Made by a program: the position numbers and the translations under genes
The notes under the pieces: model-generated
The model's input: only the letters and a program-made list of their open reading frames with translations
What the model was told of the DNA's origin: nothing
Databases searched by the model: none
Part shown: positions 1 through 14,248 of the stretch, piece by piece
How positions within the stretch are numbered: the stretch's first letter is position 1
How the letters are laid out: every line of letters starts with the position of its first letter
Source of the DNA: Vallitaleaceae bacterium 9-2
GTDB lineage: Bacteria; Bacillota; Clostridia; Lachnospirales; Vallitaleaceae
Direction: 5' to 3'
Length of the DNA: 64,000 bases
Assembly (NCBI GenBank): GCA_038396585.1
Contig: CP121691.1
Coordinates: 2,480,001-2,544,000, forward strand

Positions 1-923
1 TGCAACTTATTAATCACGTCCTCGATATCGCGACTTAGATTTCGCATGGAGCGATGAATATGGTCATAATTTCTTTGCTGTTGCTGTGCATCTAAGTAAT
101 GTTCATAACGAAGTTCAAGAACTTCTGAGCTGTTTACTTGGTATTTTTCATATTCAAAATCAAGAAGTTGCTGATTACGAATATACTTTAATTTTGTTTT
201 ATTCAACAGCTTGACGGCACGTTCTTGTAGGAGCTGATTCTTCTTAATTTCATGGACACAGTAGCGTCTAAATACAAACCCCCATATAAATAAAAAGGAT
301 ACTGTAACAATACTAATTAATGCTGGTAAAAACACATTCTCATTATAGACAACGACCAGTGTTGACAATACAATTCCTACGATCAGTGTAATAAAAACCA
401 ACGCCAGCATAAAATACTTTAAAAAAGAAAGGGCACGTCTTAAGTTTCCAAAATGAAAGAGTAAACTTTGCTTTTCTCCTTCTAAAATATCCAAATCTTT
501 TTTTACCATGTTTTGATTTTCTTCATGTTCTTTTAATACATGTATCGCTTTGGCAATATCTTTTGATACCAAGCGAATATGCGGGTTCTCTCGATTTTTT
601 GCCTGGGTGTTTTTTGTTTCTGCTTCTTTTATGGCGACTTTGTATTCAGATAACTGACGGCACAAGTCATGCAAATAACTTTTCGTATCTTCATGGGCCA
701 TTTTTATTCGTTCTACGACAATAAACTGATTCATCTGCTGATGATATTGTTGTGATAGTTCTTGTAATCTCACATCATTATCCCGTAGCATATCTTTTAT
801 TTTTTCATTCTTATAGGGGTCCTTTAAAAGTGTCTCCACATCCATCCCAAGCAATAGCTCTTCTTCATAAGGCTTAAATCTTGACTTGAGTTTTCCGATT
901 TTTTGTATGATTTTTTTAAACAT
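1..923 (-). CDS. Two-TM coiled-coil membrane protein, 3' end beyond window
   Basis: Partial gene of at least 307 codons running off the left edge. The start is ATG at 923-921 preceded by an AGGAGC ribosome site. Residues 1-165 are charged, Gln/Glu/Lys-rich and likely coiled coil. Two hydrophobic segments follow (about 171-193 and 198-218), then a second charged helical stretch up to the edge. Both long helical arms would therefore lie on the same side of the membrane. It is the last visible gene of the Hsp70 operon, 31 bases after its neighbour, so it could tether that machinery to the membrane (inference). No enzymatic motif seen and no family recognised. Confidence 0.8.
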   Translation of the reverse strand, partial: MFKKIIQKIGKLKSRFKPYEEELLLGMDVETLLKDPYKNEKIKDMLRDNDVRLQELSQQYHQQMNQFIVVERIKMAHEDTKSYLHDLCRQLSEYKVAIKEAETKNTQAKNRENPHIRLVSKDIAKAIHVLKEHEENQNMVKKDLDILEGEKQSLLFHFGNLRRALSFLKYFMLALVFITLIVGIVLSTLVVVYNENVFLPALISIVTVSFLFIWGFVFRRYCVHEIKKNQLLQERAVKLLNKTKLKYIRNQQLLDFEYEKYQVNSSEVLELRYEHYLDAQQQQRNYDHIHRSMRNLSRDIEDVINKL

Positions 924-954
924 AAGCTCCTATTCCATTCTATAATATTACACC

Positions 955-1881
955 CTACTGTTTATCCAACGTATAAAATCGTATGGCGTATGCTTGTATT
1001 TCTTTTTTGATATAGCGTTCGCGCTGCTTCCATTCATGCACTAACGCTTCCAAATAATGTGTCTCTCTCTGAAAATCCGACCCGACTTCTGCCAGCTTTG
1101 CCATATGATAATACGCAAGTACACGTTCTTGGTCAGAAAGTTGTTCCAATAGAATCCTATTTGCCGCTTCAACTGATGATATGATTTGATTCATGGAATA
1201 ATACGCAAGCGATTGATACAACGCATAATCTGAATTATTATCCGTATACTCTATGACAAATGCATAGGATGAACAGTCTAAATGTGCGCCTAGCAATGCT
1301 TTTGTATAGACTTCCGGATATTTTTCTTTTAGATGCTTAATCATGACTTCTGCATATATATCTTTTCCAATACCAATCATATATGCCAGGTAGTAACGTA
1401 GCCATTTCAACTGATTTTTTTCGTCTTTTAATTGTAAAAATGCCGTTATGCTATGTTCTGTCTCACCCATAAACTGATAATACCAAACCAGAAAATCAAA
1501 TGCATCTTCATCCGGGTGATGAGCGATTTTGACAATATACTGATCAATATTTATTGTATCTTCCCATCCAAACACCAGCATACATTTGATATATACATAG
1601 AGTACTTTGGGTGATTGATTGTTCTTATATCCATGAATAATACATTGTTGTCCTTCTTGTTCAAAACCATATCTTAAAAGTAAAATCCCCATATTAATCA
1701 GTGCTTCTTCATCTTTGTGAAGATATGCTTGCCAATATGCATTAAATCCATAATCGGATCGTTGGGTATCAAATAAATAATCACCAAGATAATGCCAGCG
1801 CTTAGCCTGTTGTTCTTCTATTTGCTCAGGATACACAAGGTCACTACCGGCTGGGTTATGTCGGCACAAAAATACCCCCAT
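955..1881 (-). CDS. Helical-repeat (TPR-like) hypothetical protein of the Hsp70 island
   Basis: 308 residues, mostly helical, with repeated Tyr/Leu/Ala-rich helix pairs such as DYGFNAYWQAYLHKDEEALI and a later YALYQSLAYYSMNQI stretch, consistent with a TPR- or Sel1-like solenoid. The start at 1881 lies 3 bases from the stop of the Hsp70-vWA gene, which implies translational coupling. No signal peptide or membrane segment, so it is probably cytoplasmic. Such solenoids commonly bind peptides or partner proteins; here it may be an adaptor for the Hsp70 proteins (inference). An HPD tripeptide at residues 122-124 is not in a recognisable J-domain. No specific family recognised. Confidence 0.75.
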   Translation of the reverse strand: MGVFLCRHNPAGSDLVYPEQIEEQQAKRWHYLGDYLFDTQRSDYGFNAYWQAYLHKDEEALINMGILLLRYGFEQEGQQCIIHGYKNNQSPKVLYVYIKCMLVFGWEDTINIDQYIVKIAHHPDEDAFDFLVWYYQFMGETEHSITAFLQLKDEKNQLKWLRYYLAYMIGIGKDIYAEVMIKHLKEKYPEVYTKALLGAHLDCSSYAFVIEYTDNNSDYALYQSLAYYSMNQIISSVEAANRILLEQLSDQERVLAYYHMAKLAEVGSDFQRETHYLEALVHEWKQRERYIKKEIQAYAIRFYTLDKQ

Positions 1882-1884
1882 ATC

Positions 1885-3975
1885 TTACTCCTTCTCCACA
1901 CGTACGAGCTGTGCAAGCTTATTAGCTATCGCATCAAGAATATCATAAAACGGTTCATCCATAGAATAATAGTGTCCATATTCTCCTACTAAAGGTGAAT
2001 AGGCTAAGAGACTATCCGGATCTTTTTTTGCAACAACATAACAGATAACGCCTGCATCATTCACTGTTTTTATAGCGTCCTCCAAACCTCGACCATTGTG
2101 GGTAGGTATATGTGGCGGAGCATCCGTTATCACAATAAATGCTTTGTATGCATTGGCTACAGGGCGTTTTTTTAGATACTCAACCCCAGTTTCTACCGCT
2201 TCAAGGGTTGACTCTGGAATATCACCGCCATAATTTCTCGGCAACTTCTTCACATTTTTACGAAATCGTTCTATATCTTTTGTCCATTTGTATTTTTTAG
2301 GCTTTTCACGTTCCCCTAAGTCTCCATAGCCAATTAATCCCAACTGATAGTCAATGCCTTTTTGATGGAGCTGATTTGAAAATTCAATAGCTTTTTCTTT
2401 TACTCCGTCTATATACACATCCATACTGCTTGTTGTATCAATGATAAAAACAATGTCCATCCCTGTTATATCCGGTGCAGTTTTTGCCAGCGAATGGTCA
2501 ATAACCGGAGCACTCTTTGTTCGATCAAAAGCTTGACAGACTTGATGTCCGCTAATCTTGTCCACGACTTCTACTTCAAATAAATTATCTCGGTCAATTT
2601 GATAGGTAATGGATAACTGGCTGTCATCGGTAATATTTTCTAAAACGACAGACCCTATATACTTACTCGTCTGTTCATGTCCTTCTTCCCACTGAAAGCA
2701 GTCAATCGAAACAGCATGAGCTCCACGCGTCACTTTAAAGCCATCTTCCGTTGCAGTTGATGGAATCTCTGTTCCCATCTTAAGGATAGGAATAAGTGCT
2801 TTTTGTCCGGTTGCTTCATTTATAATTGCTCGCGTTCCTATATGCTGACGCATAATTTGTCCAATCTCAACGCTGCTATTTGGCAAATGCATCAGATAAT
2901 TATAGATAGCCGCTCCCATTGCTACACTTTTTGCCGGATCTTTGGCACGGTAGGGTTCTTTTATATGCCCTGCAATAATACGCTTTACCATAGGCACAAG
3001 TGTTGATCCGCCAACTAATATCACTTTATCAATCGTCTCCTTTGTCTCACCAGAACGTTCCAGCGCCAATTCAACCACGTCCATACTTCGCTCAATATAT
3101 TCACGAATAAGCTCTTCAAACTGATCCCTTGTAATGTCAAAAGTTAATTGATATGGAATGCCATCAACAATAGTGATTGGATGAATATTGACACTCATTT
3201 TGTTTGCCTCAGATAGCCCTCGCTTTGCCCGTTCTGCTTCAATGCGTATTTTTTGCATCATTTGTTTTTGTTCAAGCTCTTCAAACTGACAGATGCTTAC
3301 TCCATGTTGTTTTTCAAAAGCTTCTACCATCGCTTGTACTAACACTTCATCAAAATCATCGCCGCCCAGCTTCATATCACCTACATCCGCCAACTCTTGA
3401 AATGAATTGTTCCCATATATATCTTGGGCCACGGATAACACACAAGCATCAAATGTACCTCCGCCCAAATCATAAATCAGAATTTTTTGTACGTAACTTT
3501 GCTTATATCCATACTCAATAGCTGCCGCCAGCGGTTCACTTAACAGATGGACTATCTCAAATCCTGCAAGCATACCGGCTTTTTTAGTGGCATATATCTG
3601 GCGATCATTAAAATATGCCGGATGGGTTATAACCACTTCAACAATAGGCTCTCCTATTTGTTCTTGGGCTGCGTCTTTTATCTTTTTTAGGATTTCGCTA
3701 CTAACTTCCTCTGGTAATAGCTCGTATCCTCCCACAGTAATCGCTTCTTCTTGACCCATTTTACGCTTAACTGAAAAAATAGTCTCTTCCGAGTAAATCA
3801 CCGCACTATTTTTAGCCTCTGTTCCAACCAATATCTCATCCTCAAGATAACAAACGACCGATGGCAGCACTTCTTGTGCACCGTCTGTTTTGACAACATC
3901 CATTAAGTCTGTCCGATCATCATAAAGCATTCCTACTGTATTGGTTGTTCCTAAATCAATCCCTAAAAATGCCAT
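1885..3975 (-). CDS. Hsp70 fused to a C-terminal von Willebrand A domain
   Basis: 696 residues. Residues 1-~375 are an intact Hsp70 nucleotide-binding domain: phosphate-1 motif GIDLGTTNTV near the N-terminus, phosphate-2 motif IYDLGGGTFDACVL, adenosine motif VILVGGSTLVPMV. A short beta region resembling the Hsp70 substrate domain follows (~390-490). From residue 507 there is a vWA domain: FIIDTTSSM (MIDAS DxTxS, D513), a later GGDIPEST Thr position and VITDAPPH. The helical lid is missing. Family knowledge: Hsp70s hydrolyse ATP to bind and release clients, and vWA domains bind proteins through a metal. Joining them suggests an ATP-controlled, metal-dependent client or adhesion module (inference). 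It sits 6 bases after the second Hsp70 gene. No signal peptide. Confidence 0.93.
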   Translation of the reverse strand: MAFLGIDLGTTNTVGMLYDDRTDLMDVVKTDGAQEVLPSVVCYLEDEILVGTEAKNSAVIYSEETIFSVKRKMGQEEAITVGGYELLPEEVSSEILKKIKDAAQEQIGEPIVEVVITHPAYFNDRQIYATKKAGMLAGFEIVHLLSEPLAAAIEYGYKQSYVQKILIYDLGGGTFDACVLSVAQDIYGNNSFQELADVGDMKLGGDDFDEVLVQAMVEAFEKQHGVSICQFEELEQKQMMQKIRIEAERAKRGLSEANKMSVNIHPITIVDGIPYQLTFDITRDQFEELIREYIERSMDVVELALERSGETKETIDKVILVGGSTLVPMVKRIIAGHIKEPYRAKDPAKSVAMGAAIYNYLMHLPNSSVEIGQIMRQHIGTRAIINEATGQKALIPILKMGTEIPSTATEDGFKVTRGAHAVSIDCFQWEEGHEQTSKYIGSVVLENITDDSQLSITYQIDRDNLFEVEVVDKISGHQVCQAFDRTKSAPVIDHSLAKTAPDITGMDIVFIIDTTSSMDVYIDGVKEKAIEFSNQLHQKGIDYQLGLIGYGDLGEREKPKKYKWTKDIERFRKNVKKLPRNYGGDIPESTLEAVETGVEYLKKRPVANAYKAFIVITDAPPHIPTHNGRGLEDAIKTVNDAGVICYVVAKKDPDSLLAYSPLVGEYGHYYSMDEPFYDILDAIANKLAQLVRVEKE

Positions 3976-3981
3976 ATTTAC

Positions 3982-5613
3982 CTACCTTTCGCTTTGTACC
4001 ACTGTTGTTTGATGTCGTTTTGGTATGAACATCTGCTTAAACCCTGAGGGGGAATAGTTTTGTCCATAACCTAAGTCTTCAACTTCTCCCTGAATTGTTC
4101 CTGTCTCTTCATCTATCGACAACGTTACTTTTATCTGTGTTTGACCACGAGGTCTACGTGGTAAGCCGGCAACTTCTACATCACCTATGACACTACATCC
4201 ATCCACACCCTTATCCTTATGGATGCGCTCAAGTATTCGCACCGATAGATGTGTCATATCCTCTTGCGTCTCTCCATCAATCGTAAATATTTGGGCACGA
4301 CGTGCTAATCGATATGGAGTCCCTCGACTAATCATTGTATAGAATGTTCTAACTGCATCCACTTCAATCTCAAAACCTATATCATGAGGTACGCACACTT
4401 CAAAATTCATATATTGTCGTCCTGTTGTAAGCTCCGTTTGCGTATGCACGCCCATTTTCATCGCTGCATAAATAGTTGCTCCCAAGGATATATCTAACGC
4501 GGGACGGTCTGTAACATAAATTTTTTCTTGATCTTGAAAAAGATGAATCATCATTTTTTTGATCCAAGGCATTTGAGAGGAACCACCTGTCAAAAGAATC
4601 CGATCAACATCTTCTGGCTTTATGGCTCCTTGATACGCTTCTTGTAATGTTTTTACAACAAACAGTTTCGTCTTATCTATAAAGGCTTGCCCAACCCTCT
4701 CTAAATCTTCTCGCGTCATACTCAGTACAAAAGGAGGTACACAAAATGCAAAGGGTACACGTACTTTTTGAGTGCCTGATAATCGTTCTTTTGTCTCACG
4801 AGCACGCATCTTTATTTCCGCATGATTTTCCTTGGAAAGCGTCTCTATTGGATGCCCTTTATCTCGAATACACTGCAAGAAATAGTCATACAAAAGCGCA
4901 TCAAGAATATCTCCACCGTGCTTAGCTTGTCCTCCTTCACTCAGCACTTTTAGTGTTTGCTCACGCGCACTTACCTGCTCAACACCAAACAACGTAATAT
5001 CCAGCGTTCCACCGCCAAAATCAAAAACCATAACCTTCTCTCCTGGATTAAACGGATGGTGATAGCTATAGGTCAATGCCGCCGCTTTAGGTTCTTCAAT
5101 TAGACATATGAGTTCATCTTGAATCCCTGCAAGTTGACACGCACTAATCGTTGCCTTCTTTGCCGCATCGTCAAAATCATACGGTACGGAAACAACAATT
5201 CCGGCTATTGAACTTTTAGGGTTCATACTTTTTATTTGATTAAAAAGCGCACGTAGAACCATGGCTGATAATTCTTCTGGGGAAAACGATTGACTATTGA
5301 GCACGATGGGTTGATTGGTTCCCATAAAACTTTTAATGGACATTGCTGTTGCTTCTGGAAAAATGACATAGGTATTGAGCGCTTCTGTCCCAACAATCCA
5401 CTCCTCATCTAACTCTTCTTTACGATACTGAATAACACAAGGTAAGGGAATTTTTCCAAAACCATTACTCATATCTATCGGTTCAGGTGTATGCTTTTGT
5501 TGGTGCCAATAACTAATCACAGAGTGTGTCGTTCCCAAGTCAATACCCAGTATATATAGATCTTCATCTAATCCTTGTTCTTCAATTATTTTTTTATACT
5601 GTTCAATACTCAT
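3982..5613 (-). CDS. Hsp70-family chaperone-like ATPase (second paralogue)
   Basis: 543 residues. The nucleotide-binding domain is complete: GIDLGTTHSVISYW near residue 24, VFDFGGGTLDITLFGV, and ILLTGGSSQMPWIKKM. A beta-rich segment (~400-530) fits an Hsp70 substrate-binding beta domain (GLPRRPRGQTQIKVTLSID resembles the conserved GIPPAPRGxPQIEVTF strand), but there is no helical lid and no EEVD-like tail. About 20 residues precede the first motif. The start overlaps the end of the degenerate Hsp70 gene by 11 bases, indicating coupled translation. Divergent from DnaK, so probably a specialised paralogue rather than the housekeeping chaperone (inference). Cytoplasmic. Confidence 0.93.
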   Translation of the reverse strand: MSIEQYKKIIEEQGLDEDLYILGIDLGTTHSVISYWHQQKHTPEPIDMSNGFGKIPLPCVIQYRKEELDEEWIVGTEALNTYVIFPEATAMSIKSFMGTNQPIVLNSQSFSPEELSAMVLRALFNQIKSMNPKSSIAGIVVSVPYDFDDAAKKATISACQLAGIQDELICLIEEPKAAALTYSYHHPFNPGEKVMVFDFGGGTLDITLFGVEQVSAREQTLKVLSEGGQAKHGGDILDALLYDYFLQCIRDKGHPIETLSKENHAEIKMRARETKERLSGTQKVRVPFAFCVPPFVLSMTREDLERVGQAFIDKTKLFVVKTLQEAYQGAIKPEDVDRILLTGGSSQMPWIKKMMIHLFQDQEKIYVTDRPALDISLGATIYAAMKMGVHTQTELTTGRQYMNFEVCVPHDIGFEIEVDAVRTFYTMISRGTPYRLARRAQIFTIDGETQEDMTHLSVRILERIHKDKGVDGCSVIGDVEVAGLPRRPRGQTQIKVTLSIDEETGTIQGEVEDLGYGQNYSPSGFKQMFIPKRHQTTVVQSER

Positions 5614-6841
5614 AGTTCACCTCTTTGATCTGTCCTTCAATACTGATCTCCAACGTCATCGTTACATATGTTGTCGCATGCTTTGGATATATATATAAAT
5701 TAAACAGATGGGATTCTTGCATATTATCATCATATTTTACAAAAGGGACACTTCGTTGATAATCGGTCAAAATCAGTTCAATAACATAACGCTTTTGATA
5801 TATCTGTCCCGGTCGAATAAAAACAATACGTCGTCTATCTTGATCAATGATTCCATAGCCCCAATGTGTCTTTGTGCTCGTACACAAATCGCCGTTATGT
5901 GTATCTCGATAATTCAAGAATGCTTTAGCCCCTATAAAAAGCATATGTTCATCATATTGGTATCTTCCATCATCCATGAGTTTTTGCCAAAAAATCTCCT
6001 GGTTATATCCCCCACTAATGATGCTCTGGGTTAGCTCACTATTCAATGCTATTGTATTTTTTTGAACCCATTGTTCAAAAAACACAATAAACTCCGCATA
6101 CGTGATCGTTATCTTTTTGGGAGGATAATAAATGGATGTATATAAATTCACATCTTGCTTCGATTGAACTTGACGATATAAAAGCATCTTCTGATCATTA
6201 TATGTCTGCTCAATGCGCTGTAAATCAATCTCCTTTTTATATATCTTTCTATGTGCAGCTTGAATCGTTTGAAGATAGAACTGATCAATCGCTTCAAGTG
6301 CCGTGGGTCTTTGTATTATTTCATCGACATATTCTTTCTCCAAATCGTCTTTTACAAAGTGAAAATGCATACTTTTTGTACTATTAAAATAGGTCAGCCA
6401 GGCATCGTTAAGGCCTTGATCGTAACCATAACCTACAAGTGCTTGTTTTAAAGAAATCCATTGAATTTGTATGCTATTTTGCTCTGCTAATTTTTTTTGA
6501 ACACTTTGACAGTGTTTTGCAGAAAATCCAGCGCCATTCATGAGAATAAGGGAGGTTACTATATCTCCATGATATTGTTGCAAGATTTTATAAAGACAGT
6601 GCTGAATAAAATCAGCCGTCCATTCAGGGGTAAGCCCTGCCCAAACCGCATTATCAAACGTATCTGCTTCTTCTCCACAAACGACTGCATCTTCATCTTC
6701 AATATACGCTATTTTAAGAGGGATCTGCATTGATCCATATCCACCGGTTAAATCGATATATTCTAAGTTCTCCCCAAAATAATCACCAATAGCGAATGCG
6801 CTTTTGTTCTCGCCCAATTCCATCCATACTGTAACCTTCAT
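5603..6841 (-). CDS. Degenerate Hsp70/actin-fold protein lacking nucleotide motifs
   Basis: 412 residues that can be laid by eye onto the neighbouring Hsp70s but without the ATP-site residues. The N-terminal VWMELGENKSAFAIGDYF replaces GIDLGTTNSV. GGYGSMQIPLKIAYIEDEDA then CGEEADT follows the Hsp70 pattern of Pro-Ser-Val strand and VGxEA. TQSIISGGYNQEIFWQKLM matches the VGGSTxxPxVxxxI adenosine helix region, and FIGAKAFLNYR matches the GAA helix. The phosphate-2 DLGGGTxD motif is replaced by LTYFNSTKSM. ATP binding is therefore probably lost, suggesting a structural or regulatory pseudo-Hsp70. From memory only, it may match the uncharacterised DUF5716 family of Clostridia. It starts 8 bases after the GrpE-like gene. 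Confidence 0.75.
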   Translation of the reverse strand: MKVTVWMELGENKSAFAIGDYFGENLEYIDLTGGYGSMQIPLKIAYIEDEDAVVCGEEADTFDNAVWAGLTPEWTADFIQHCLYKILQQYHGDIVTSLILMNGAGFSAKHCQSVQKKLAEQNSIQIQWISLKQALVGYGYDQGLNDAWLTYFNSTKSMHFHFVKDDLEKEYVDEIIQRPTALEAIDQFYLQTIQAAHRKIYKKEIDLQRIEQTYNDQKMLLYRQVQSKQDVNLYTSIYYPPKKITITYAEFIVFFEQWVQKNTIALNSELTQSIISGGYNQEIFWQKLMDDGRYQYDEHMLFIGAKAFLNYRDTHNGDLCTSTKTHWGYGIIDQDRRRIVFIRPGQIYQKRYVIELILTDYQRSVPFVKYDDNMQESHLFNLYIYPKHATTYVTMTLEISIEGQIKEVNYEY

Positions 6842-6849
6842 ATCATCTC

Positions 6850-8574
6850 CTATTTTGCTGCGACAACACTTGCACGTGTGATAATACGATCTTGTATTGA
6901 AAAACCACTATTTTTAGTGCGTATAATCTGACCTTTGTTAAAGTCAGAGGATTCTTCAACAAGTATAACTTCATGTATCTTCCCATTGAATTTTTCTCCA
7001 GCTTGAGGATAAATTCTCTCAATTTGATACTTTTTTAAGTCCCCAATCATTTTGTCAAATAATTGACAGATTTGTATTCCAAAAGTCTGGACTAACTCCT
7101 GTTCGTCTTCCATAATACGAGTAATAGACTGCTCTATAATATCTTCAAAACTTTTGATTTCGAACAAGATGTCTTTATTTAAATGTCTGATTTCACCTTC
7201 ATAGGCTTCATCCATGGTCTGTAAAACCATTTTATCAAACCGTGCTTGAACTCGTTCAAAGTCCTTACTATCGCCTTGTATTGCTTCTTCTAAGTAATCT
7301 GCACATTTTTTTTCAAATTCTTTTCGAAATCCGAGCATCCTATTGGCCACGTCCAGCTGATTGGTTTTTCGCTCCATTTGAAAATCTTCGTTTTTTTCTT
7401 TGATGACATCATACTTAAGCATTAAAGTATCAATGACCCCTTTAATAATATTTTGATGATGCTCTGTTTGAACCTGATCATAGTCTGTCGCTTGTATTTT
7501 AGCTAATGTAGTTCCCATGTGTTCAATTAATCGAAAACAAATAAGCTCAAACGGATGGCTGATACGTTTAAAATCATTGATTGCTTTTGTACTGACTTTG
7601 ACTAGTTCATCGTTGACATGCATTAAGAACAAATCAATCGTATTTTGCTTATTCGCTTCAACACCATCCATCAATGTTGACAATTTGGAATTATTCATAA
7701 TATTTTTTTCGATAATATTTTCAATGTTTTTTATTATAAAATTGTATTCAACTTCATCGCATTGTTTAATCGATTGTTCACTTTCTTCTATCGCTTCACA
7801 AATGGACGTATAGGTATGGCGAAGTGGCCAAATAAATTGATGGGTCAGTGTCTCTAACGGTTTTTGCGAATCATCTAAATCACTATTTGATTCATTATTT
7901 GAGTCACTGTTCGAGTCAATATTTAGGTCAATATGAATAAAACTTTCAAGTATATTTTTTTGCTCCTGAAGGATTTTTAGATACTCTATTAGATCTGACC
8001 GCTTTTCATAATTATTGATCTCTTTTGCATGGTTTTCTACGATGCGTTTTAGGTTATGTTGCATCCCCGAATACGCATCTAGAACAAATGCTTTTAAAAT
8101 ATTTTTGTAGTCATTATATGTACTTATGGGAAGTTTAAACTCTTTAATCGCCTCATCACGTAAACTCTTTAGGGCTTCTTGTGATTTTAGCAAAACCAGC
8201 GATTCAATTAATGTACGTTCATATTCCAAAGGATTTTCACGTTCAACAAAAAAAGATTCTCTCTGATCTTCCAATACATCATAAATCATTTTAATAATTT
8301 CAAGGCTTTCCATATCTTCAATAGGGTCTAAGTTTTGTGTCAAATAGGTTGTATAACATGATTTTATCTCTTGTATGACATCGTATACTTTTTCCGTGTT
8401 TTTTAGCTGGTTAATATTTTCTATATAGAGTTTAACCTGAAGTAATATTCGTGATATCATTTGATCAAAAGCTACCTTAAGGACATCTATGCATCGATCT
8501 TCCATTTGATTATGGTTTAAGACATATTCTAATACAACTTTTTCAATTTGTTTTTCTTCAATAAATCTATACAT
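6850..8574 (-). CDS. Long helical protein with C-terminal GrpE-like nucleotide-exchange domain
   Basis: 574 residues from the ATG at 8574, chosen because GAGG lies just upstream; the longest frame (8601) would overlap the Hsp70 gene and has no ribosome site. About 520 residues are helical and charged (Glu, Lys, Gln, Ile), coiled-coil like. The last ~50 match the GrpE beta domain: GEKFNGKIHEVILVEE corresponds to GxxFDPxxHEAVxxxE, and GFSIQDRIITRASVVAAK to GYxLxdRVIRPAxVxVAK. The helix before it (FDKMIGDLKKYQIERI) also resembles GrpE. GrpE drives ADP release from DnaK, so this is likely the dedicated exchange factor of the adjacent Hsp70s (inference). It is about three times the length of normal GrpE. 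Confidence 0.8.
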   Translation of the reverse strand: MYRFIEEKQIEKVVLEYVLNHNQMEDRCIDVLKVAFDQMISRILLQVKLYIENINQLKNTEKVYDVIQEIKSCYTTYLTQNLDPIEDMESLEIIKMIYDVLEDQRESFFVERENPLEYERTLIESLVLLKSQEALKSLRDEAIKEFKLPISTYNDYKNILKAFVLDAYSGMQHNLKRIVENHAKEINNYEKRSDLIEYLKILQEQKNILESFIHIDLNIDSNSDSNNESNSDLDDSQKPLETLTHQFIWPLRHTYTSICEAIEESEQSIKQCDEVEYNFIIKNIENIIEKNIMNNSKLSTLMDGVEANKQNTIDLFLMHVNDELVKVSTKAINDFKRISHPFELICFRLIEHMGTTLAKIQATDYDQVQTEHHQNIIKGVIDTLMLKYDVIKEKNEDFQMERKTNQLDVANRMLGFRKEFEKKCADYLEEAIQGDSKDFERVQARFDKMVLQTMDEAYEGEIRHLNKDILFEIKSFEDIIEQSITRIMEDEQELVQTFGIQICQLFDKMIGDLKKYQIERIYPQAGEKFNGKIHEVILVEESSDFNKGQIIRTKNSGFSIQDRIITRASVVAAK

Positions 8575-8581
8575 ACATTCC

Positions 8582-10261
8582 TCACTTTCCATACAATTCA
8601 TCGACAGTCAGTACAGTTGAAATTCCTTCTGTATCTACAGACCAAGCTTCAACCATTAACATATTGTCTTGATTTAATTTGAATTGAATACGGATTTTTT
8701 CCTCGCCTTTGGCTTTGGGTGGGATATTTCTTAGTGTTGTCCCTGTCAGGCGTCGCATACTTTGTTCATAGACAAACTTTCGCTTATTTTCATTGGGTTC
8801 TAGGTCTTCATATACAATAATAGCCATACTTGTTAATCCATCATAATTTGTCTCAAATGTGTAGGGTGCTTCAACAATGAGTCCGTCATCAGGTATCTCC
8901 ATATCACGTTGTATAATCTCAAGATAACGTCTCCCAGCCATTTCAATCCCTAATGAATGAATTGTCTTTTCATAAACTTTGGGTCCTTTTGTTGAAGGAA
9001 GCATAATTTGATGACAATAATGCGCCGCACCTTGGGATATGCTTAATGCCGGGCTTATCTTTGACCGATAAGGCTCTTGCTGAAAATATGCTTGGATTTT
9101 TTCTTCTACAATAGGCAATGCTGATGAACCGCCAACCAAAAAAATATCGGTGATGTCCGCTACATCAATATGTGCGTTAACCAAACACTTTCTCACACTG
9201 TCCATAGTACGTTCTACAAGCGTATGTACTGACACATCTTGCATGCGTTCAAATACATATGTTGAGTCATCTAACGGATGCTTACGCTGATGGGCATAAA
9301 ACATCTCCCGATTAATCTCAAACTGTATATTGACAGGCACGGGTGTTTGAATAAATGGTGCTAATACGACTTTTGCTTTTTGCGTTGTTGACAATTTTTC
9401 TTTAACTTGGTTTGCAACATGCTTCATGCGAATAATCGCCATTTTTTTGTCTTGAACCGCAAGTCCATCGTCTATTTCAAAGTTATATAAATCAATAGTA
9501 TGATGCGTTTGTTCTAAAAAATGTTCATAAATCAAATCCACCATGAGCTGGTCTATATCATTACCTCCCAAGTAATTGTCTCCATAAGTACTTAGAATGG
9601 AAATATTAGGTTCATCTTCCGATTCTTCTTGGCGAATATCTAAGACGCATGCATCAAAAGTTCCGCCTCCAAAGTCATAAACCAGCACTTTTTTACTTTT
9701 TGAGGATGTTGTGGCATATTGTATTGCAGCTGCTGCAGGTTCTAATCGTAAATACACATTATCTTCATCAAACCCTGCCATTACCGCCGCTTTTTTCATC
9801 TTTCTCTTTTGTTTATCGGTTGAGTTGGCCGGAACAGTAATAACACAACCTGAAAAAACTCCGAAAATATTTAATGTATCTCGAATATACTCGTCTGCTT
9901 GGGATTTTAAATAGCCAAGAATCTCTGCAACAATCGTTTCCGGCAAAAAACTATAACGGTCTTTATCACAATAAATCTCAATGGGTTCATCCGACTCCAG
10001 CTTACGCTTAATGGATGTTACCGTACTTTCGGGGTAAATTACAGCGGACTCTTTCGCTTCTAGACCAAATATTCGGTCAAGCTCTCCTGTTACTGCATTT
10101 TTTTCAAATTGAATAACCGAAGGAAACACGGTGTATCCATCAATTTTTAGGGTATGGACTTCGTCTTCATCATAATGGTATATACTCACAACAGAATTCG
10201 TCGTTCCAAAGTCAATGCCCATATATAACCCTTTATTAAGTTCTAAACTTAGGACTCCCAC
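8582..10261 (-). CDS. Hsp70-family chaperone-like ATPase (first paralogue)
   Basis: 559 residues. The longest frame starts with GTG at 10261-10259, 8 bases after GGAGG; an internal ATG at 10222 that gives MGIDFGTTNS is a possible alternative. ATP-site motifs are intact: GIDFGTTNSVVSIY, VYDFGGGTFDACVLDI and IFLVGGSSALPIVEEKI. Residues ~405-555 form a substrate-binding beta domain (HSLGIEMAG, LRNIPPKAKGEEKIRIQF, NMLMVEA). The alpha-helical lid is absent, and the hydrophobic DVLLLD interdomain linker of DnaK is replaced. First Hsp70 of the operon, just before the GrpE-like gene. Cytoplasmic ATPase; the client is unknown. Confidence 0.94.
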   Translation of the reverse strand: MGVLSLELNKGLYMGIDFGTTNSVVSIYHYDEDEVHTLKIDGYTVFPSVIQFEKNAVTGELDRIFGLEAKESAVIYPESTVTSIKRKLESDEPIEIYCDKDRYSFLPETIVAEILGYLKSQADEYIRDTLNIFGVFSGCVITVPANSTDKQKRKMKKAAVMAGFDEDNVYLRLEPAAAAIQYATTSSKSKKVLVYDFGGGTFDACVLDIRQEESEDEPNISILSTYGDNYLGGNDIDQLMVDLIYEHFLEQTHHTIDLYNFEIDDGLAVQDKKMAIIRMKHVANQVKEKLSTTQKAKVVLAPFIQTPVPVNIQFEINREMFYAHQRKHPLDDSTYVFERMQDVSVHTLVERTMDSVRKCLVNAHIDVADITDIFLVGGSSALPIVEEKIQAYFQQEPYRSKISPALSISQGAAHYCHQIMLPSTKGPKVYEKTIHSLGIEMAGRRYLEIIQRDMEIPDDGLIVEAPYTFETNYDGLTSMAIIVYEDLEPNENKRKFVYEQSMRRLTGTTLRNIPPKAKGEEKIRIQFKLNQDNMLMVEAWSVDTEGISTVLTVDELYGK

Positions 10262-10279
10262 ATTTACAACCTCCTTGTT

Positions 10280-13078
10280 TTAAATACGGAATATTTTTTT
10301 TATGTTATTACAATGCTCTAGGTATTCGTCAATGAGACCATATGTCCCCTGTCCATCTCCCACTTCCATTGCATATGCAATGAAATCCAACTGTTGCTTT
10401 GGAACTTGTTCATATACAATATCTGAAACAACAACAATCGTCTTATGCTCGGATATTTTTTTTGTAATATAATATTCCATATATTCTCCATAGAATACAA
10501 ATATCGGATGTACAAACAATCCATAAGCTATATGCACCATTTCTTGTCCATGAAACACTTCATCTTCAGCATATCTACAATAAATTTTTATCTCGTCAAA
10601 GGGCTCTCCATAATATTGTATACTAGTCTCCAATGTTTTTCCACTCTTTTTACATGCCCAAGGAATCAATATGTTGCGTTTTATAAGTTCGTCGCGACAA
10701 GGGTGTTCTGGAAATATTTTTAACAAGGCGAGCAATAACCCATTATCAGGATTTTGTTCATCCGCATAGCACCCTTGAAGAATCTGAGTCTCCTCTTGAT
10801 TAACACTAACATCGTCAATAAGTATTTGTTGACAAAGGTTTTGGCAAAGCAATGGGCGAACTAACCTTTGTTCTTCGAATCTCAAATGTGCATAAATCTG
10901 CATCAATTGTTCATGGGACCGGTTTTGAAGAATTCCTTCTAAAAACGCCGTCAACGACATCGTATTTTTCATGTTTGCCTTATATGTATCATTATCAAGG
11001 AAGATAGGCAAAGAAACCTTTGATTGTTCATACCATTGTCTAGCCGGAGCATATATTAACAGGATGCCTTCTGGCTTAATATTTGATTCTATACGTTCAT
11101 AGAGGGCCTTATTCTGCACTTGTGTTATGCTCTCAAGCGTCACTTGAATAAGATATTCTAAAACCGATTGGCCTGTTGACGTCGTATAAAGATATTGAAT
11201 AAACGTATCATCCAGCATCGCTTCTAATATATCGAAGTGTTCACCAAACATATGTGCATCGATGTGTGCAAGAATCTGTGTAGCTGCATACATATATTCC
11301 GTCTCATGGGTCATCTCTCGAAGATAAACTATGAGTTCTTGATATATTCTCGAAAATCGGCTAAAATCAATGACTTGCGCTTCTATCATCTTTCGATATA
11401 TATATCCTTTTGCTTTCGTCGATAAATCTTTTATAAACGTCATGTAACGCAACAGGCCAAAGTCAATCGGCTCGTCAAGTTGCGCTGCTGCTTCCACATA
11501 ATATCGGTCCAGATTTTTTATATATCGCCCTTCACCTAAGCCTACTTTATAGTATTCTAAAGCAAGACCGTCATAACGCTGCTCCTCCATTGCTTTCTCA
11601 CAACATAAGTCCACCAAAGAAGGCGAAGGATATGTCTTATACAGTTGCATCAATAGCCGACTTGATACATATTTGTTTTTACGTATCCACATCTTTTCCC
11701 GCCCTAAGAGACGATGCGCCCATTGCTTTCCCAAGCATTGTTGGTTTAACGCCCATTGAATACACACTGCATAAAATTGATCATCCACCTCCACAAAAAT
11801 CTCATGTTTGTTCAGGTAGTGCACTGCTTCAGCAAATAAAACTGCATATCTAGTTTTTTGTTCATATAACTGTCGATATATCAAATAACGATCAATTCCT
11901 TTTTCAAGGTAGCGGGTTTGAATTAATGTATTTAGACAATGACTGTCTTTTTTTATTTCATTCAATGTCAGATAGCGCTTACTGCTTTTCTTTTGTACTA
12001 TCGTTTCAAAGACTAAAAAAATCGGATAGTATGGATTTTTTTGAAAATATTCATCGTATTTTCGGATGTACCTGGCTTCTTGTTCATAAGAACGCATGTC
12101 CCCCATATCCACTAGTGCCCATAAATAAATTAAACGAAGATCAAAATCCAACTGATTAAAATTTAAGCAGCCTTTTATATGATTGGTAAAGCTAATCCAT
12201 TCTTTTTTTGGCATTCGCTCTGTAAGAAGCATCAAAAACTGTCGCATGCATTGCACTCGAAGTTGCCGATGCATTTTACGATTCAGAACATTAATGGAGG
12301 TCTCATATAAGGGATAGGCTGTAATTATTGTTTTTATCTTCCGTTGTTGGGAAGGCGTATTTTCCCCATCCAAATGAATCCGAAAAGCAATTTCTTCAAA
12401 TGGTGTCTCCTTAAAAACCACACGCCCAATAATTTTATCCCATGCCGTTTGCTGAATATACCATTCTTGAGTCCATATATCTTTTAGATAAAATTCCGTA
12501 TTTTTTGGGTGAATCAAATCATGGTCCGATTCAATCATAATACTTTTAAGTTCACCCGCTCCATTAAATAATCGCAACTCTATAGCTTCCTCCAGGCTAT
12601 AGGTCATCTTTTCAAAAAAAATAGCCACATCATTCGAATGCTGTGTTTTTGTAGACATATTAATAATCTTTGTCTGGTGTTGGATTGCTTGTGTCTGGGT
12701 CACCTCACCAAATCTATCTATACTTGCCTTGATTTGAAATTCAATGGTAGTGGCGCCTCCTGGATAGTATAGGGTCACTTCTTCTTCATAACTATACCCA
12801 GGAAAAAGTTTTCCTCCATCAATTTCATATTGTATATAATTTGATGTCGGTTTTTTATCCACTTTCAGTTTTATAATTCCTTTTAACGCTTCCATGTATA
12901 TCCATTGAAAAGATTCTAAATATGGACGCACGTAAAATTCACCATAAAAGATTTGACCATTGTTTATGACAATCTCATTTCTTTTTGGTTCTACTTGAAG
13001 TTCAAACTTGGGATGTTTTAATCCATAATTCGCAATGGCTAGCAAACATTCATCTTTTCTCATTCCACTCACATCCAT
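10280..13078 (-). CDS. Large beta-plus-solenoid protein opening the Hsp70 operon
   Basis: 932 residues. The N-terminal ~260 are beta-rich (alternating strands such as KFELQVEPKRNEIVINNG and GGATTIEFQIKASID), like one or two Ig-type sandwiches. Then ~550 residues of Tyr/Leu/Gln-rich helical pairs form an alpha-solenoid. A C-terminal beta segment follows (IQYYGEPFDEIKIYCRYAED). No ATPase motif, signal peptide or membrane helix. From memory it may belong to the uncharacterised DUF5717 family found beside Hsp70 genes in Clostridia; this is not verified. As the first gene of the operon it may be the scaffold or client-recognition subunit (inference). ATG at 13078 is used; an in-frame ATG at 13063 is an alternative. 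Confidence 0.8.
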   Translation of the reverse strand: MDVSGMRKDECLLAIANYGLKHPKFELQVEPKRNEIVINNGQIFYGEFYVRPYLESFQWIYMEALKGIIKLKVDKKPTSNYIQYEIDGGKLFPGYSYEEEVTLYYPGGATTIEFQIKASIDRFGEVTQTQAIQHQTKIINMSTKTQHSNDVAIFFEKMTYSLEEAIELRLFNGAGELKSIMIESDHDLIHPKNTEFYLKDIWTQEWYIQQTAWDKIIGRVVFKETPFEEIAFRIHLDGENTPSQQRKIKTIITAYPLYETSINVLNRKMHRQLRVQCMRQFLMLLTERMPKKEWISFTNHIKGCLNFNQLDFDLRLIYLWALVDMGDMRSYEQEARYIRKYDEYFQKNPYYPIFLVFETIVQKKSSKRYLTLNEIKKDSHCLNTLIQTRYLEKGIDRYLIYRQLYEQKTRYAVLFAEAVHYLNKHEIFVEVDDQFYAVCIQWALNQQCLGKQWAHRLLGREKMWIRKNKYVSSRLLMQLYKTYPSPSLVDLCCEKAMEEQRYDGLALEYYKVGLGEGRYIKNLDRYYVEAAAQLDEPIDFGLLRYMTFIKDLSTKAKGYIYRKMIEAQVIDFSRFSRIYQELIVYLREMTHETEYMYAATQILAHIDAHMFGEHFDILEAMLDDTFIQYLYTTSTGQSVLEYLIQVTLESITQVQNKALYERIESNIKPEGILLIYAPARQWYEQSKVSLPIFLDNDTYKANMKNTMSLTAFLEGILQNRSHEQLMQIYAHLRFEEQRLVRPLLCQNLCQQILIDDVSVNQEETQILQGCYADEQNPDNGLLLALLKIFPEHPCRDELIKRNILIPWACKKSGKTLETSIQYYGEPFDEIKIYCRYAEDEVFHGQEMVHIAYGLFVHPIFVFYGEYMEYYITKKISEHKTIVVVSDIVYEQVPKQQLDFIAYAMEVGDGQGTYGLIDEYLEHCNNIKKIFRI

Positions 13079-13110
13079 ACTAGATTTTTTTACCCTTTAT
13101 CGTTATAATG

Positions 13111-13139
13111 ATTATAGCATATTCACAAATTGTTTCCAA
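13111..13139 (-). promoter_or_regulatory. Sigma-A promoter of the Hsp70 island operon
   Basis: On the minus strand, -35 TTGGAA (13139-13134), 17-base spacer, extended -10 TGCTATAAT (TATAAT at 13116-13111). It lies about 33 bases before the first gene and overlaps the leader and ribosome site of the divergent aminotransferase gene, so the two transcripts may interfere. No CIRCE or heat-shock operator is visible near it. Confidence 0.75.
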
Positions 13140-13150
13140 AGGAGAACCTT

Positions 13151-14248
13151 ATGAAAGAACTGAATAATTTTCATGGTAGCGATGTTGAAAAAGTCGCAAA
13201 ATTTTATCATCTCGATGAAAAATCTATTATAAATTTTAGCGGCAATGTTAATCCACTTGGTTTATCTGAGCAACTACAAGAGAAGCTCATTGCAAATATT
13301 GATTTAGTTACCAATTATCCTGATCCAGACTATCACACATTAAAGGCAAGCATCTCTCAGTATGCCTCAACCCAAAGCGAGTATGTTTTATTAGGTAATG
13401 GAACAACTGAACTCATTGCCCATTATATTGATTATGTCCACCCTAAAAAAGCATTGATTATTGGACCGACCTACTCCGAATACGAAAAAAAAATCAGCAG
13501 TTGTGATGCCGGTGTTGTCTACTACCCTTTAAGTGAATCCAATGATTTTAAGATAGATATTGAAACCATTATCACGATGTGTACCACTGATATTGATTTG
13601 GTTGTTTTGTGTAATCCGAATAATCCTACCGCTTCCTTGATAACGTCTAAGGAGCTTACTCCCTTATTTGACCATCTTAAAGCACTTGGATTACATATCT
13701 TGATTGATGAAACTTACATGGATTTTATAGCAAATGCGGATCATATAAGTGCCATTAATCTTGTAGAGCGTTACTCTAACTGTATTGTTCTTCGTAGCTT
13801 TTCAAAGTTTTTCTCTGCGCCTGGACTTCGACTAGGTTATGGCATTACTAGTGATTTTAAATGTCATGAATCAATGGAAAAACAACGCCACCATTGGGCA
13901 ATCAATTCACTCGCTGCTTTTGCCGGCTCTGAATTAATGAAGGACAGCGCTTTTATTGAGCATACCCATCAATTTATTGAATCCGAGCGTATACGTGTTG
14001 GAACACTATTATCAACAATCAGCGCCTTAAAAGTTTTTCCAAATTATGGTAATTTCTTTTTTGTAAAAATTATTCATCCTCAATACACGACTCAAAAATT
14101 ATTTGACCACCTTATTAAAAGACATCTAATGATTCGTAACACCGCTTCTTTTCCATTTTTGCATGGTGAGTATTTCCGTTTTTCACTTTCTACTCGAGCA
14201 AATAATGATTTGCTCATTGATGCTCTCCAAGATTTCTTTACTCAATAA
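13151..14248 (+). CDS. PLP-dependent aminotransferase, CobD/HisC-like
   Basis: 365 residues from the ATG at 13151, directly after GGAG (13141-13144); the longer frame from 13130 has no ribosome site. Fold-type I PLP enzyme: NFSGNVNPLG at the N-terminus, CNPNNPTA, IDETYMDF (Asp that contacts the pyridine N) and SFSKFFSAPGLRLGYG holding the Schiff-base Lys. The opening motif and the HHWAINSLAA segment resemble L-threonine-O-3-phosphate decarboxylase (CobD) more than histidinol-phosphate aminotransferase, but the two families are hard to separate by eye. A cobU lies 23 kb away; no other cobalamin or his genes are near. Divergent from the Hsp70 operon. Confidence 0.75.
   Translation: MKELNNFHGSDVEKVAKFYHLDEKSIINFSGNVNPLGLSEQLQEKLIANIDLVTNYPDPDYHTLKASISQYASTQSEYVLLGNGTTELIAHYIDYVHPKKALIIGPTYSEYEKKISSCDAGVVYYPLSESNDFKIDIETIITMCTTDIDLVVLCNPNNPTASLITSKELTPLFDHLKALGLHILIDETYMDFIANADHISAINLVERYSNCIVLRSFSKFFSAPGLRLGYGITSDFKCHESMEKQRHHWAINSLAAFAGSELMKDSAFIEHTHQFIESERIRVGTLLSTISALKVFPNYGNFFFVKIIHPQYTTQKLFDHLIKRHLMIRNTASFPFLHGEYFRFSLSTRANNDLLIDALQDFFTQ

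Follow-up and report, generated by a model that had tools for sequence, protein, structure and literature searches.

What does a bacterium do with four Hsp70-type proteins and a GrpE-type protein that are encoded together, in a unit that holds no gene for a J protein? The question is raised by a locus in a genome that consists of a single contig of 3.81 Mb. The window, i.e., the whole stretch of 64,000 nucleotides that was analysed, has its first 13 kb filled by eight genes on the minus strand, denoted A to H in the order of transcription. These genes and the features at the edge of the locus are as follows.

10280 to 13078, minus strand: gene A, 932 amino acids, DUF5717, with beta-strand-rich ends around a helical-repeat solenoid; putative scaffold
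8582 to 10261, minus strand: gene B, 559 amino acids, Hsp70 without lid, ATP motifs intact
6850 to 8601, minus strand: gene C, 583 amino acids, long helical protein with a GrpE domain at its end
5603 to 6841, minus strand: gene D, 412 amino acids, dead Hsp70 with the nucleotide-binding and the beta substrate-binding part, assigned to DUF5716
3982 to 5613, minus strand: gene E, 543 amino acids, Hsp70 without lid, ATP motifs intact
1885 to 3975, minus strand: gene F, 696 amino acids, Hsp70 without lid, fused to a vWA domain (residues 505-655) with MIDAS motifs
955 to 1881, minus strand: gene G, 308 amino acids, diverged TPR protein
1 to 923, minus strand: gene H, running off the window start to chromosome position 2479835; 362 amino acids when complete
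13111 to 13139, minus strand: promoter-like site TTGGAA-17-TATAAT, with TG before the -10 element, upstream of gene A
13130 to 14248, plus strand: divergent class I/II aminotransferase (PF00155, E = 8.5e-51), the other edge of the site

According to these coordinates, successive genes from A to H are spaced by 18, -20, 8, -11, 6, 3 and 31 bases. The whole of H is found in the genome at L009:14835-15923 on the minus strand, and valS comes next. A sequence-only reading of the window had described the eight genes as one self-contained, chaperone-like machine. Open reading frames, Pfam matches and motifs agree that the genes are real and that its list of parts was right.

The Hsp70 proteins of the operon

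The products of B, E and F match the HSP70 family (PF00012) with E values of 3e-64, 9e-54 and 3e-90, respectively. The second of them also matches DUF5716_C weakly (1e-5), and the third carries a vWA domain (PF00092, 2.3e-9), whose three MIDAS pieces were found by pattern match in 27, 35 and 35 of 36 copies. None of the three is a DnaK: when scored with the DnaK equivalog NF001413 they reach 232, 185 and 318 bits versus 648, far below the cut-off.

The ATP-site motifs were read from an alignment to the genome's own DnaK, with the seven or eight commonest variants listed per motif. Phosphate-1, the catalytic lysine, phosphate-2 and the adenosine motif are kept in B (45 copies), in gene E (39 copies) and in F (36 copies, one of them a gapped fragment). 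D of the window has lost all of them, as have the most frequent variants on the list for 59 copies of D. The earlier count of three intact ATP sites and a destroyed one is thus borne out by the motif alignments.

In two further respects B, E and F depart from DnaK. The lid is missing: the median number of lid columns covered is 1 of 92 in B and 14 of 92 in gene E, and the residues of F that align there belong to its vWA domain. In addition, the DLLLLDV-type linker of DnaK is replaced in the consensus sequences of all three. The linker of DnaK carries the coupling to the J protein and its lid carries the trapping of substrate, and from the loss of both we infer that B, E and F may work in a J-independent mode. 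The beta substrate-binding part is retained, with PF00012 matches that reach profile positions 489, 476 and 492, and peptide binding and a chaperone role are for this reason possible for these proteins.

The nature of D follows from its orthologues, since D of the window has no Pfam match and DUF5716_C reaches its gathering score nowhere in this genome. The DUF5716_C model passes its gathering score in the D orthologues of loci L071 and L073 and in D of family f2, where the protein in the position of D is a DUF5716 protein with an E value of 9e-107. The orthologue in L073 matches DUF5716_C (1.5e-26) and HSP70 (1.4e-17) together, and DnaK is matched over positions 11-481 of 497 by a profile built from 15 D proteins (E value 6.5e-19). 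These three results taken together show DUF5716 to be a catalytically dead Hsp70.

Putative scaffold and helper proteins

Protein A matches the N part of DUF5717 (PF18984) with 46.1 bits and the C part (PF18983) with 38.7 bits, both against a cut-off of 25 and over parts of each model. The helical-repeat nature that had been proposed for this 932-residue protein is supported by a profile of 23 A proteins, which matches designed PPR/TPR repeat proteins with an E value of 1.4e-11. AF2 models of A and C were built with two seeds on alignments of three rows, i.e., the proteins of the window, L011 and L012. The model of A is poor overall (pLDDT 47.5), with helical pairs at residues 461-670, where pLDDT is 65-81, and strands near both ends. 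Foldseek found no match to it at an E value of 0.001 or better, and the best VIA-align result, Z = 10.2 against generic helical-repeat proteins, is under the level that the tool advises for repeats. Outside families f1 and f2, a separate gene of some 290-470 codons, a homologue of the DUF5717 N part, stands in front of most A genes, and in L073 and L094 this gene and A form a single gene for 1326 amino acids.

Protein C ends, as had been noticed from the sequence, in a GrpE-type domain: PF01025 matches residues 427-582 with 55.3 bits against a gathering cut-off of 25.8, and such a tail is present in 41 of 43 copies of C. Its AF2 model (pLDDT 44.5) is too poor for use. G of the window has no significant Pfam match; its orthologues in L073 and L063, tied to it by a profile, match TPR_2 with E values of 5e-26 and 4e-14, and G is read on this ground as a diverged TPR protein.

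Regulation and the canonical chaperones

The absence of a J domain and of a CIRCE element, both recorded by the sequence-only reading, stands: none of the eight proteins matches a J domain of Pfam at E values up to 1, and a search of the window for CIRCE elements that allowed 3 mismatches found none. As a control, the CIRCE pattern matches exactly once near the genome's canonical dnaK genes (L139). A stress chaperone under CIRCE control is therefore not how we read genes A to G. Upstream of A, at a distance of 33 bases, there is a promoter-like site; the whole scan gave 48 such sites versus 57.5 in shuffled sequences, and the site is suggestive only.

The genome has one canonical dnaK-grpE-dnaJ set elsewhere, and two further J-domain proteins are encoded outside the dnaK operon (L119 and L120). 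One of these has an N-terminal membrane part and a C-terminal J domain, the other an N-terminal J domain. Both are possible partners in trans of the A to G proteins. Hence only one half of the claim that the machine is self-contained holds: its genes travel together, as will be seen below, and the genome has the canonical set and the two J-domain proteins elsewhere.

Consider now a specialised chaperone that folds a client, in which the beta domains of B, E and F bind peptides, J proteins act in trans, C exchanges nucleotide, and A and G deliver the client. With DnaK-DnaJ-GrpE the operon shares the nucleotide-binding and beta substrate-binding parts of Hsp70 as well as the GrpE domain, and it is these retained parts, together with the two J-domain proteins beside dnaJ, that speak for such a chaperone. 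Unlike DnaK-DnaJ-GrpE, however, the operon has several divergent Hsp70s and a long GrpE protein; B, E and F no longer have the linker motif and the lid of DnaK, which are either lost or replaced; and there is neither a J gene among the eight nor CIRCE control. We place this explanation on the unlikely side.

Gene order and distribution

Is the operon conserved beyond close strains? In one relative, a metagenome-assembled genome, protein A is 97% identical to that of the window, and a first scan of genome contigs found L011 and L012 only. A broader comparison comprised 74 loci, i.e., 73 other stretches and the window, drawn from families f1, f2, f5, f90, f91, f92, f93, f94, f95, f100, f102, f105 and f106 of one order, which we take to be Lachnospirales, with f2 presumably being Lachnospiraceae. 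All of A to G are present in 34 of these loci, and the order A to G is the same in all 34, in some with unrelated open reading frames in between. Another 19 loci are reduced, with A and G and without B, C and E (18 from f2 and one from f94), and in the remaining 21 the contig or the stretch read ends within the locus, or some of the genes lie elsewhere.

The distribution over genomes is confined in a similar way. Among 391 genomes of the class, the C part of DUF5717 occurs in 16, all of the window's order, of which 3 further listed genomes have no match. Within 246 genomes of the order, A (as DUF5717-C) is found in 121 and F (E value 1e-150) in 84. A shorter actin-like protein in L042 that had been taken for F (331 amino acids, 38 bits) was left out of the F count. 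With relatedness ignored, 82 genomes have both A and F, 39 have A alone, 2 have F alone and 123 have neither. DUF5716_C is found in 117 of the 246, which is not an independent count of D, since the model also picks up gene E weakly. In a sample of the phylum F was detected at a strict 1e-180 in 1 of 398 genomes, the window's own, at which level a more distant Hsp70-vWA fusion would escape. The A and F profiles found no relatives in viral contigs.

The presence of A in 82 of the 84 genomes with F, together with the conserved order of A to G in many families, means that the genes travel together, and the conservation of the neighbourhood that the earlier reading had proposed to check does extend beyond close strains. 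To exemplify how far this goes, eight genomes of f91 carry A without B to F on the stretch read, and F is found elsewhere in all eight (in G515 as a partial match).

Unrelated genes that differ from locus to locus sit between the operon members in L085, L090 and L101. By eye they are metallo-beta-lactamase-like proteins in L085 and L090 and three similar lipoprotein-like proteins in L101. When the inserted genes of these and other loci were read for effectors, no common theme was found. In genus g2 of f2, a Pfam scan that covered L032 among L030-L034 showed genes for a MoxR-type AAA+ protein and a DUF58 protein a few genes downstream of a reduced operon of A, D, G and H, with purine and folate genes in between (L032:3865-9818). 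Among the eight operon proteins of the window there is no MoxR AAA+ protein of the kind found in MoxR-vWA ternary systems.

The chromosomal site and its neighbours

In f1 the order is valS-H-G-F-E-D-C-B-A-aminotransferase. Three genomes without A (L124, L135 and L137) have valS-H-aminotransferase, in two of them with a short open reading frame between valS and H; L136 has H-aminotransferase, and in L121 three other genes lie between. The sites of f2 are exemplified by L041, with valS-H-G-A-aminotransferase, where D is masked by an overlapping open reading frame in the gene calling, and by L038, with valS-G-D-A. Genes A to G thus occupy a fixed, housekeeping-like chromosomal site between valS-H and the divergent aminotransferase. 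A position by valS and the aminotransferase is common to f1, f2 and other families. The genes are present in a single copy, and the stretches read show no sign of mobility.

The site bears on whether the operon belongs to a conflict or immunity system, such as the one predicted for neighbourhoods centred on a GAP1-N2 GTPase, in which HSP70, GrpE, a second HSP70 and FNIII-DnaJ or FNIII-TPR proteins occur together (PMC7159879, section 29). This is the closest printed list of parts to A to G. The two have in common an HSP70 with GrpE, a second HSP70 that lacks parts, a beta-sandwich protein with TPR (or DnaJ), vWA domains in related themes, and membrane links (PMC7159879). That A, C, D and G evolve fast, as described in the next section, also fits a recognition role in a conflict, and PADLOC gave matches to PDC-M61B, with E values of 3.2e-9 for gene E and 9.1e-5 for gene F. 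These, however, are matches that any Hsp70 may give: they amount to 34 and 19.3 bits and cover a section of the Hsp70 domain, and none of the described anti-phage systems gave a specific PADLOC match. Moreover, unlike the neighbourhoods in PMC7159879, the operon has no TRAFAC GTPase, no GAP1 and no DnaJ fusion, where the search of the eight proteins for a GTPase or GAP1 went to E values up to 1; it has three ATP-competent Hsp70s and a dead one, with the vWA domain fused to an Hsp70; and among the genomes sampled it occurs in a single order, where it keeps its fixed site in single copy and acquires inserted genes that vary by locus. An immunity system of this kind is distinctly unlikely. A defence island ranks low in view of the fixed site, the vertical pattern and the unspecific PADLOC matches, and the suggestion that the machine could serve defence is weakened to this extent. 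CoCoNuT systems (PMC11090510) resemble the operon in that their large operons combine vWA genes with Hsp70-like domains; they differ from it by an McrB GTPase, a nuclease and a coiled-coil McrC partner.

Gene H, which encodes two membrane segments between coiled coils, had been assigned to the machine as its membrane anchor. This assignment does not hold for H as a defining part. With a profile that excludes neighbours other than H, e.g., the NAGPA protein L073:772-2232, H is found in 145 of the 246 genomes, and 46 of these 145 are without A, in keeping with the valS-H-aminotransferase sites above. Conversely, 99 of the 121 genomes with A have H, and 22 have none at an E value of 1e-8. H is an old neighbour of the valS site, which may or may not cooperate with A to G.

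A different protein, X, precedes A or other DUF5717 genes in 21 loci, e.g., L082:126-1433. It has three membrane segments, first one and then a pair, followed by a long coiled coil, and is unrelated to H; none of the 21 loci carries H on the same stretch, although several of the genomes have H elsewhere. Eight copies scanned gave no Pfam family above the cut-off. X was considered as a proton-channel subunit and rejected, since its matches among solved structures are confined to the coiled coil, where chains of ZorA and of MotA/TolQ/ExbB domains appear beside apolipoproteins and keratins.

With H and X at hand, one may picture a membrane or envelope module, in which one or the other anchors A to G at the membrane and the whole organises the envelope or a cytoskeleton-like structure. 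H adjoins G in f1, f90, f93 and 15 of 18 f2 loci, X stands before A in its 21 loci, all without H on that stretch, and the co-occurrence of A and H is above chance when relatedness is ignored. The genomes that have one of A and H without the other point the opposite way, and H may simply be there as the old neighbour of valS. We regard a module of this kind as unlikely.

The reduced form and its descent

In f2 all 33 genomes with A have DUF5716_C, i.e., D, and none of the 33 has F. All 18 loci read there are of the reduced form A(-D)-G(-H), without B, C and E, and an HSP70 scan of the 18 genomes revealed no Hsp70 cluster by A. Seven f2 genomes contain 12 extra Hsp70s (two fragments in G279 left out), whose scores are better with DnaK than with B, E or F and fall far short of those of orthologues. 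One f2 locus (L147, G605:C9:156500-162000) has a long Hsp70, 1469 amino acids when read through one stop, about 10 kb from a DUF5717 gene; it, too, is nearer to DnaK than to B, E or F. Outside f2, G403 (f100) and G539 (f94) have A and D, and their only Hsp70 match is of DnaK type. From the reduced form in 18 of 18 f2 loci follows that the scaffold part can work without this set of ATPases.

A tree of 33 A proteins, unrooted and with long branches, requires at least 2 changes between full and reduced form; the 22 rows labelled full include stretches that end early (L070, L082, L101) or that lack E and F locally (L095). The full locus of f90 groups with the reduced rows of f2 and f94 (100/100), and the reduced L078 of G403 pairs with L095 (100/100). 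The f90 locus looks frayed, with F and G each in two open reading frames and a C of only 279 amino acids. Loss of B, C, E and F in the reduced forms would be a simpler reading than gain.

In a tree of 48 operon Hsp70s and DnaK, B, D, E and F are each split off by one branch (100/100, 100/100, 95/96 and 100/100, respectively), and subgroups recur among them, judged by eye: L077 with L084, L072 with L073, and the window's own locus with L062. The four clades with their matching subgroups suggest joint vertical descent. The rates differ greatly, with D the fastest: the branch leading to the window is 3.06 for D versus 0.28 for B, 0.31 for gene E and 0.26 for F. With the closest relative set aside, the proteins B, E and F of seven loci share 53-68% identity with those of the window, and A, C, D and G share 21-33%.

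A strict vertical pattern at one site is also what would be seen if there were no common machine and the neighbours were held together by descent and shared expression alone. Such an explanation leaves unaccounted for that a split operon, as in the eight f91 genomes, still has its parts in the same genome, that f2 and, separately, G403 lack B, C, E and F all at once, and that four Hsp70 paralogues and a GrpE protein share one unit. We consider it very improbable.

Discussion

A seven-gene order that is conserved over many families of one order points to a chaperone-derived machine without prior description. A literature search, mostly beyond subscription journals, returned no description of the A to G operon or of a role for DUF5717 or DUF5716. 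Both families are entered in Pfam without a stated function. A belongs to DUF5717, D joins DUF5716 by profile, and the two are adjacent in f2; unlike the Pfam entries, the present analysis gives DUF5716 a nature, that of a catalytically dead Hsp70.

The reading that we prefer is that A to G are a vertically inherited, J-independent and nucleotide-switched assembly on a DUF5717/DUF5716 scaffold. A would be the scaffold, and the dead Hsp70 D would dock permanently on it. B, E and F would, depending on the nucleotide that is bound, attach to A or release it, or do the same with a partner that the vWA domain of F holds as a partner-binding arm; and C would reset B, E and F by nucleotide exchange through its GrpE domain. 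The Hsp70s would then be nucleotide-gated clamps or assembly subunits rather than a classical refolding chaperone, a role suggested by the missing lid, the missing DnaK-type linker and the lack of a J protein in the operon. The likely task of such an assembly would be to build or remodel one particular large cellular structure or client. For this mechanism we count the order in 34 of 34 loci, the co-presence of A and F (also in the eight f91 genomes), the four Hsp70 clades, the ATP motifs, the GrpE tail of C, the dead Hsp70 D, the slow evolution of B, E and F beside the fast one of A, C, D and G, the reduced form in f2, and the lack of CIRCE; against it count the two J-domain proteins outside the dnaK operon, the beta substrate-binding part that has been kept, and the fit of fast-evolving A, C, D and G with recognition in a conflict. 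On balance it comes close to an even chance without reaching it.

In its boldest form the proposal is a new class of Hsp70 machine, where three lidless, J-independent ATPases and a dead Hsp70 on a DUF5717 solenoid, reset by a dedicated long GrpE protein, constitute an ATP-timed assembly switch, and where this switch has been lost in one large family, in which the dead Hsp70 (DUF5716) and the scaffold work alone. This we put forward tentatively, as possible rather than probable.

The common view of Hsp70 proteins is that they depend on a J protein, a lid and a linker. Four Hsp70 paralogues that occur across an order with a GrpE of their own and none of these three would be a test case of what the Hsp70 ATPase is capable of in their absence. 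If the proposal is true, the family without the ATPase switch is a natural dissection of an Hsp70 machine, and its scaffold-only genomes are a ready comparison for experiments. Two unnamed Pfam families would, at the same time, become parts of one system, with DUF5716 as the dead Hsp70 and DUF5717 as its scaffold.
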